Source: Nitrospirae bacterium GWB2_47_37 (lineage in GTDB: Bacteria > Nitrospirota > Thermodesulfovibrionia > Thermodesulfovibrionales > Dissulfurispiraceae). Taken from it: 32,551 bases of DNA. Below, piece after piece: positions 29,985-31,382 of the stretch (position 1 is its first letter; each line of letters starts with the position of its first letter). The notes below the pieces were generated by a model, which was given only the letters and a program-made list of their open reading frames with translations, searched no databases and was not told the origin of the DNA. The position numbers and the translations under genes were made by a program. The stretch spans positions 1 to 32,551 of the forward strand of contig MHDU01000015.1 of the NCBI GenBank assembly GCA_001803635.1. Reading direction: 5' to 3'.

Positions 29985-29999
29985 TCTGCCTTTGGCAGA
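29985..29999 (+). other. Small hairpin in the rhodanese leader
   Basis: TCTGCC pairs with GGCAGA around TTT, 17 bases before the ribosome-binding site GGAGGGAG (30017-30024). It may stabilise the mRNA or be a protein site. No further structure is clear. Confidence 0.35.
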
Positions 30000-30026
30000 C
30001 ATATTAATCGATATTTGGAGGGAGAT

Positions 30027-31382
30027 ATGAGTAAAAAAAGATTGCTCATAACAGCAGCCCTGCTTATAGCAGCCGGGCTCTTTTCTATCAACTCCACCGT
30101 TTCCGCGCAGGCGAAGCCGCAAACAGCGCCGCCATGTCTGCAATGCCACAAGCCTGATGAAAAGGTTTTACGCGGCGCTCTGGGTAATGTATCCATGAAG
30201 GCCGAGACCATTCAGGTACAGACAGGAGCCGCGGTATGGCTCGTAAAATTCGACGATAACACAAAACTTACAGGCGCCGAAAAACTGAATAAAATACCCA
30301 GGGAAAAGGAAATAGCAATATCCTTTACGGAAAAAGACGGCGGCCTTTATGCCGCGAGCGTATCCGTGAAACCTCCGGCAAAGATAAGGGACGAGCAGTT
30401 TATCAATGCAGGAGAGCTTGCGAAACTTGTTGCCGCAGGCCCCGAACAGGGAAACTTCACACTCGTTGATTCGAGGCCCGCGCCTAAGTTTAACGAGGGC
30501 TTTATACCGGGGGCAATAAATATTTACGACGCCCAATTCGACAAGAACATTGCTAAGCTGCCTAAGGAGAAGGACGAACTTCTCATATTCTACTGCGCCG
30601 GACCTACGTGAAGGCTCAGCCCGTCCTCTGCCGGTAAGGCGGAGAAATTAGGCTACACAAAGGTCAGGATATTTATCGACGGCATGCCTGAGTGGAAAAA
30701 AGCAGGCAACCTTGTAGCATCAACGGTAGCCAATCTTAAAGAGCATATCGATAAGGATATGCCCCATGTGCTTATCGATGCAAGAGACCTTGATGCCGCG
30801 GAAAAAGAGCATATCAAAGGTGCGGCATCCATTCCTCTTTCTGAAATCGTGCCTGCAAAAGACAGGCTGCCCGGAGACAAAAAAGCGCCCATCATTATTT
30901 ACAGTGACTCGGCTAAAACTTCCGAAGACGCATTCAAGACCGTAAGAAAATGGGGCTATCCCAATGTTGCTTACCTTACCGGCGGGATAGAGGCATGGAA
31001 AAATGCCGGAAACCCTGTGATGAGCGGAGAGCTTAAGCAGAATATCGTTTATGCATCCAAGCCGAGGCCGGGAGAAGTAGGCGTCGAAGACTTCAAAAAT
31101 ATTGCAGAGACGCTTCCGAAAGATAAATTCATACTCGACGTAAGGGATGAAGATGAAGCGGCAGACGGAATGTTCAAGGGCGCGAAAAATATCCCGACGC
31201 AGGAAATAAAGGCAAAATTAGCGGACATACCGAAAGACAAGGAAATTATCGCGCATTGCTCGACAGGCGTAAGGGCTGAAATAGCCTATCACGCATTGAA
31301 AGAAGCCGGATATAAGGCAAGGTTCCTGAATGCGAAAATAAAAATAGACAAAGACGGGAAATACGAAATAACCAAAGAATAA
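30027..31382 (+). CDS. Secreted haem c/triple-rhodanese protein with in-frame TGA, probable selenoprotein
   Basis: Read through the TGA at 30609-30611, this is one 451-residue protein. It has a signal peptide (about residues 1-27, ending VSA), one haem c site, CLQCH (Cys37, Cys40, His41), a small beta-rich segment (about 45-115) and three rhodanese domains. Domain 1 has the active loop C-A-G-P-T-U, with Cys190 and selenocysteine 195 at the TGA. Domain 2 has Ser in place of the catalytic Cys (IIIYSDSAKTS). Domain 3 has a normal loop HCSTGVR with Cys411. The frame is unchanged across the TGA and a SECIS-like hairpin follows it. The start ATG 30027 is preceded by GGAGGGAG and is better than the TTG at 30015. 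The likely role is periplasmic sulfur or selenium transfer. A plain nonsense mutation is the alternative. Confidence 0.85.
30618..30654 (+). promoter_or_regulatory. Candidate bacterial SECIS element
   Basis: An apical stem CTCTGCC (30626-30632) pairs with GGCGGAG (30638-30644) around the loop GGTAA. A lower stem AGCC/GGCT joins 30618-30621 to 30651-30654. The loop's G-G-U begins 22 bases after the TGA, within the spacing seen for SelB-dependent elements, whose loop normally contains a G followed by U. It lies inside the coding sequence, as in other bacterial selenoprotein mRNAs. Confidence 0.75.

Follow-up and report, generated by a model that had tools for sequence, protein, structure and literature searches.

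The question raised by this locus is whether a TGA triplet on the forward strand ends a gene or is read as selenocysteine (Sec) in the middle of one. The window, i.e. the whole stretch of 32,551 nucleotides that was analysed, is divided here by a plain gene caller into two genes, 30015-30611 and 30684-31382, while the original prediction saw two reading frames of the same phase parted only by the TGA at 30609-30611, and placed that codon inside a rhodanese catalytic loop, C190-A-G-P-T-U195. Translation of the window agrees on both points: this TGA is the sole stop within the frame 30027-31382 (+), and the read-through product of 451 residues carries U195 in the context YCAGPTURLSPSS. On comparative evidence it is almost certain that Sec is inserted at this TGA, directed by a SECIS element lying within the gene, and that the gene encodes a selenoprotein. 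The coding region comprises the following features:

30017-30022, forward strand: Shine-Dalgarno sequence GGAGGG preceding the ATG at 30027 (by inspection).
30027-31382, forward strand: whole coding region with TGA read as Sec, for a predicted secreted haem-motif triple-rhodanese selenoprotein of 451 aa.
30027-30113, forward strand: Sec-type signal peptide, residues 1-29, with likely cleavage after AQA (by inspection).
30135-30149, forward strand: haem c motif CLQCH, residues 37-41; C, C and H are kept in 52 of 56 aligned rows, and some homologues have CX4CH.
30165-30371, forward strand: small beta domain, residues 47-115, seen as strands in the structure model, with no Pfam match.
30396-30707, forward strand: rhodanese domain 1, residues about 124-227, bearing CAGPTU (Pfam and NCBIfam profile matches).
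30594-30596, forward strand: Cys190, the catalytic-position Cys of rhodanese domain 1 and partner of U195; of the 56 rows, 55 have C here and the remaining one has U.
30609-30611, forward strand: Sec codon TGA (U195), which closes the catalytic loop of rhodanese domain 1; the column is common to 48 homologues and holds Cys in five.
30726-31007, forward strand: rhodanese domain 2, residues 234-327, without a catalytic Cys (Pfam match and alignment).
31074-31340, forward strand: rhodanese domain 3, residues about 350-438, with the classical loop C411-STGVR (Pfam and NCBIfam matches, alignment).

The predicted composition of three rhodanese stretches and one haem c motif was recovered, as PF00581 (rhodanese) matches the product in three stretches (165 bits) and a CxxCH motif stands at residues 37-41. 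In domain 2 the loop region reads IIYSDSAK and has no catalytic Cys. The D-x-R strand motif in domain 1 does not vary across the homologue alignment. A Foldseek search with the structure model returned matches to rhodaneses; the model (mean pLDDT 74, pTM 0.44) is good for individual domains, and neither the Cys190-Sec195 geometry nor the packing of the domains can be read from it. The product appears to be exported by means of its predicted signal peptide, and its periplasmic location, and with it a Cys-Sec pair in a periplasmic protein as had been proposed, is well supported at sequence level. The mark of a c-type cytochrome, a conserved CxxCH motif, is present, with export judged by inspection; no cytochrome domain was matched among Pfam families in the window protein. 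From the conserved motif, the product probably carries one putative c-type haem.

Homologues were sought in 296 sampled genomes of the phylum and were found in 50 of these, 45 of which have an in-frame TGA in the gene; a contig scan with a single protein as query reached close relatives only, and those with public titles were mostly Nitrospirae MAGs. The alignment holds TGA at the identical column (CxGxTU) in 48 of 56 homologues, down to 31-33% identity, whereas Cys, encoded by TGC or TGT, takes the same column in five rows. In two further rows a shifted CxGC loop is seen, and the remaining row, a distant one, lacks both Sec and Cys. In a maximum-likelihood tree built without the Sec/Cys column, the Cys rows represent at least five separate switches between Sec and Cys, all forced by well-supported branches. 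The family thereby shows a recognised sign of selenoproteins, a conserved in-frame TGA that aligns with Cys elsewhere, which was the outcome that the original prediction had looked for at this column. Distant two-domain rhodaneses carry CNGVKC, and it follows that a Cys pair of such spacing exists in ordinary relatives.

Several loops depart from the common form. In L065 and L068:1290-2649 (genomes G146 and G170) a shifted loop, CVGGC (CxxxC), replaces CxxxxU, and in G170 this copy adjoins a CxxxxU copy. Another homologue (L107:4828-6197 in G203, also L076) has TGA at both loop positions (UGGYHU), with an intact SECIS and a later frame break; it may be a selenoprotein with two Sec residues or else a copy in decay.

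The hairpin that had been described after the TGA, of 7 bp with the loop GGTAA and starting 15 bases past the codon, is present as described:

30626-30644, forward strand: 7-bp apical hairpin of a bacterial SECIS, with the loop GGTAA, within the coding region, marked by covariation, by synonymous constraint and by its breakdown in most Cys homologues.

The stem is formed by 30626-30632 with 30638-30644, the loop occupies 30633-30637 and the gap from TGA to stem is 14 nt. A fold of this one sequence would not prove a SECIS, because it is only modestly better than shuffled sequences (z -1.7 to -1.9). The proof is comparative, since the homologues share the TGA column, the hairpin covaries and the synonymous constraint there is the strongest of the gene. 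In 48 distinct TGA sequences 92.6% of the stem cells are paired, against 40-54% when the partner strand is slid by 1-3 bases; cells changed on both sides number 36, compared with 13.9 in shuffles, and compensatory change occurs at five of the seven pairs. The stem variants include TCTGCC/GGCAGA, TCCGCC/GGCGGA, TCTGCT/AGCAGA, TTTGCC/GGCAAA and TTTACC/GGTAAA. The third positions of Ser201 and Ala205, both synonymous, are paired in 48 of 48 sequences, and TCC is found only together with GCG. Among 175 codon columns the four most constrained at synonymous positions are residues 201, 198, 202 and 205 (ranks 1-4), all of them in the hairpin or just before it. Nearly all TGA-carrying homologue genes keep the hairpin, with G(U/G) in its loop, and a SECIS stem-loop shortly after the TGA, the other recognised sign of a selenoprotein, is consequently present.

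Among the Cys homologues, four (L032, L042, L054, L071) have a broken stem and one, L075, has a whole one. In the latter (L075/L067, genome G256), a gene split across two contig ends, the Cys codon is TGT and the SECIS is fully intact, which looks like a recent switch from Sec to Cys with a relic SECIS. A candidate lower stem (columns 10-13 with 43-46) was rejected, being 76.6% paired with zero compensatory change. The Rfam scan of the window gave no match; Rfam is not known to hold a general bacterial SECIS model.

The machinery for Sec insertion, whose four genes had been named as a check, is complete in the window's genome: selA (625 bits), selB (391 bits, above cut-off), the tRNA-Sec gene selC (71 bits, anticodon TCA) and selD (323 bits) were all found. 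The selD gene (L017, G000:C44:18111-19025) has one in-frame TGA itself, in the context RAAGUAAKMG, and serves as an internal positive control because SelD is a known selenoprotein family. A hairpin, GGTCC-GTC-GGACC, lies downstream of the selD TGA. Of the 45 genomes with a TGA-carrying gene, 42 have selA above cut-off, a further one has a fragment of it, and the other two lack it; one of these two is 74% complete and the other (G215) 96%, where perhaps an assembly gap is responsible. The co-occurrence of selA and the gene is consistent with Sec insertion but weak as evidence, because nearly all of the sampled relatives have selA, including those that do not carry the gene. Genome G186, which has the Cys version only and is 99% complete, has no selA.

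Two other explanations of the TGA have to be weighed against Sec. It could be a true stop, a sequencing error or the mark of a decaying gene, the halves being a pseudogene or re-initiated separately; this agrees with the split made by the standard caller and with the normal use of TGA as a stop in this organism, where it ends 6 of the 19 genes checked in the window. The TGA is, however, shared at one column by 48 homologues, and its recurrence in many genomes removes the doubt about a read error that accompanied the original prediction. Moreover, pN is about 0.17-0.28 before the TGA and 0.19-0.28 after it (pS 0.75 or more), and since it is equally low on both sides, selection at the protein level acts on the downstream part too. 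Re-initiation would have to begin at M220, within domain 1, where only 21 of 55 rows have Met, and the compensatory changes of the hairpin likewise speak against a stop, which makes this explanation extremely improbable. Decoding of the TGA as another amino acid, Trp or by near-cognate readthrough, would likewise leave the frame under selection; against it, the residue that replaces in five rows is Cys, and Trp never occurs in the aligned loop. The SECIS-like hairpin with its usual distance and G(U/G) loop, the Sec machinery together with the TGA of selD, and the Cys-version genome devoid of selA all point the same way, and the chance of such decoding is every bit as slight. Insertion of Sec is therefore retained as the reading of the codon.

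In the window the gene is a solitary one, flanked by an acetyl-CoA synthetase-like gene and by tolB. No conserved operon was found around it in the relatives' loci, only synteny of the TolB region in some of them. Upstream of the window gene no sigma-54 promoter consensus was found (one occurs in L031). Sigma-54 activators adjoin several homologues, and the plasmid search gave no match. A paralogue in the same genome (G000:C38, L078:3960-5324), whose setting says more about function, also has an in-frame TGA, with the loop CRGGTU. It belongs to a cluster (L078:758-15135) with two NtrC-type two-component pairs, two YeeE/YedE Sulf_transp genes and TusA; its members include an NtrC pair, the selenorhodanese, a two-domain rhodanese, YeeE/YedE, TusA, the second two-component pair and another two-domain rhodanese. 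YeeE/YedE and TusA act in thiosulfate uptake, and from this neighbourhood a periplasmic sulfane-sulfur role is inferred. As the window gene has no conserved operon, the case for a sulfur role is built from its domains and from the neighbours of the paralogue.

A further structure was noticed ahead of the gene:

29985-29999, forward strand: 5' leader hairpin TCTGCC-TTT-GGCAGA; comparable hairpins occur in several close relatives.

It sits about 28-42 nt upstream of the ATG and perhaps serves translational control. Leader hairpins upstream of the start codon are also present in L022, L024, L028, L029, L036, L038 and L076, and in relatives the stems are altered yet complementary (CTGTC-TTT-GACAG, ATGCC-TTT-GGCAT, TCGCC-CTT-GGCGG).

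Taken as a whole, the locus is very probably best explained as encoding an exported haem-motif triple-rhodanese selenoprotein that would act in periplasmic sulfane-sulfur handling, probably as a Cys-Sec sulfane-sulfur transferase or reductase. SelB with Sec-tRNA binds the hairpin 30626-30644 and the ribosome inserts Sec at the UGA, the step that the comparative evidence shows. C190 then takes the usual place of the catalytic Cys and U195 is the last of the six loop residues, which gives a CxxxxU pair. In the proposed mechanism C190 would take up sulfane sulfur to form a persulfide, which U195 would attack, with sulfide released or the sulfur handed on; the resulting selenenylsulfide at U195 would need re-reduction. 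C411 of domain 3 and the haem may take part in sulfur relay and electron exchange, in a setting of periplasmic thiosulfate or polysulfide handling. The chemistry of a C190 persulfide and a U195 selenenylsulfide is advanced tentatively, at somewhat less than even chances, and the fact that two-electron reduction of a Se-S bond is beyond a single haem by itself counts against it.

It may also be that the rhodanese folds are a scaffold and that the selenoprotein works in thiol-disulfide or peroxide redox reactions, electron transfer or sensing. In favour of this, a Cys-Sec pair is suited to redox chemistry, the Cys of domain 2 is gone, a haem motif is present and sigma-54 activators lie beside several homologues; it is a serious competitor that falls a little short of an even chance. 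What argues for sulfur chemistry instead is the classical CxTGxR rhodanese loop kept in domain 3, the invariant D-x-R strand motif of domain 1 and the grouping of the paralogue with YeeE/YedE and TusA. The boldest form of the sulfane-sulfur reading, a Se-dependent periplasmic transferase or reductase whose rhodanese loop has been turned into a redox pair of Cys and Sec working with a c-type haem, would be a novel type of enzyme that occurs widely in a single phylum; this is possible but less likely than not.

Rhodanese selenoproteins as such are already known. TsoB (NF045694), reportedly defined by Haft and Tolstoy in 2025, is a rhodanese/DsbD fusion-like protein with UxxxxU. Its rhodanese region is related to the window protein (E 8e-19, residues 114-240 only) and the five-residue spacing of the two loop positions is equal, homologue L076 having U at both; TsoB differs in possessing two Sec and a DsbD-like part, whereas the window protein has C first, three rhodaneses and a haem motif. 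The window protein scores 67 bits against the TsoB cut-off of 805, and in 198 genomes of the phylum there was no TsoB above cut-off and only a partial, DsbD-like match. NF041203 (LYCAU, CxU, 'form 3') shares the rhodanese fold and a catalytic Cys followed by Sec within the loop, but its motif is CxU in place of CxxxxU, its 126 model positions could not accommodate three rhodanese repeats plus a haem region, and the window protein reaches 70.8 bits against a cut-off of 115. The two-domain rhodaneses L080, L081 and L083 (CNGVKC) have a CxxxxC pair of identical spacing; they differ by Cys in place of Sec, two domains and the lack of a haem motif. In the NCBIfam release of June 2026 the window protein stays below the cut-off of every model, NF041203 and TsoB being the nearest of the selenoprotein models.

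An inventory of 2026 counts 119 selenoprotein families or subfamilies in prokaryotes, five of which are rhodanese forms (UxxS, UxxG, CxU, UxxG and UxxxxU), and treats a different Sec motif on the same domain as a separate subfamily (PMC13188914). Rhodanese-like forms 1, 2 and 4 (UxxS, UxxG; Table 1 of PMC13188914) resemble the window protein in joining a rhodanese domain with Sec, but their listed motif is Sec-first and has no preceding Cys, whereas here Sec stands at the loop end after a kept Cys. CxxxxU is absent from the five forms (PMC13188914), and a mention in the supplement of the paper defining TsoB is possible. Because the Sec motif differs on the same domain, the protein counts under the inventory's own rule as a new subfamily within a kind already known; the CxxxxU triple-rhodanese/haem form is likely such a subfamily, apparently unlisted, and not just a new member of a listed one. 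The suggestion that the combination may be new stands for this form, and has to be narrowed for selenium in rhodaneses and for the spacing, which TsoB already shows.

The subfamily adds to the known selenoproteins, as it falls outside the 119-family inventory and is called by no NCBIfam model, and therefore public annotation of the phylum probably cuts such genes in two. With Sec closing a rhodanese loop across from a retained Cys, and with a haem motif nearby, the use of selenium in sulfane-sulfur chemistry becomes directly testable. The repeated switches between Sec and Cys form a natural series on the loss of Sec; one of them retains a relic SECIS and another lies in a genome that lacks selA. 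If the proposed reading is true, a Se-dependent type of sulfane-sulfur enzyme would have been overlooked because annotation ends its gene at the TGA.
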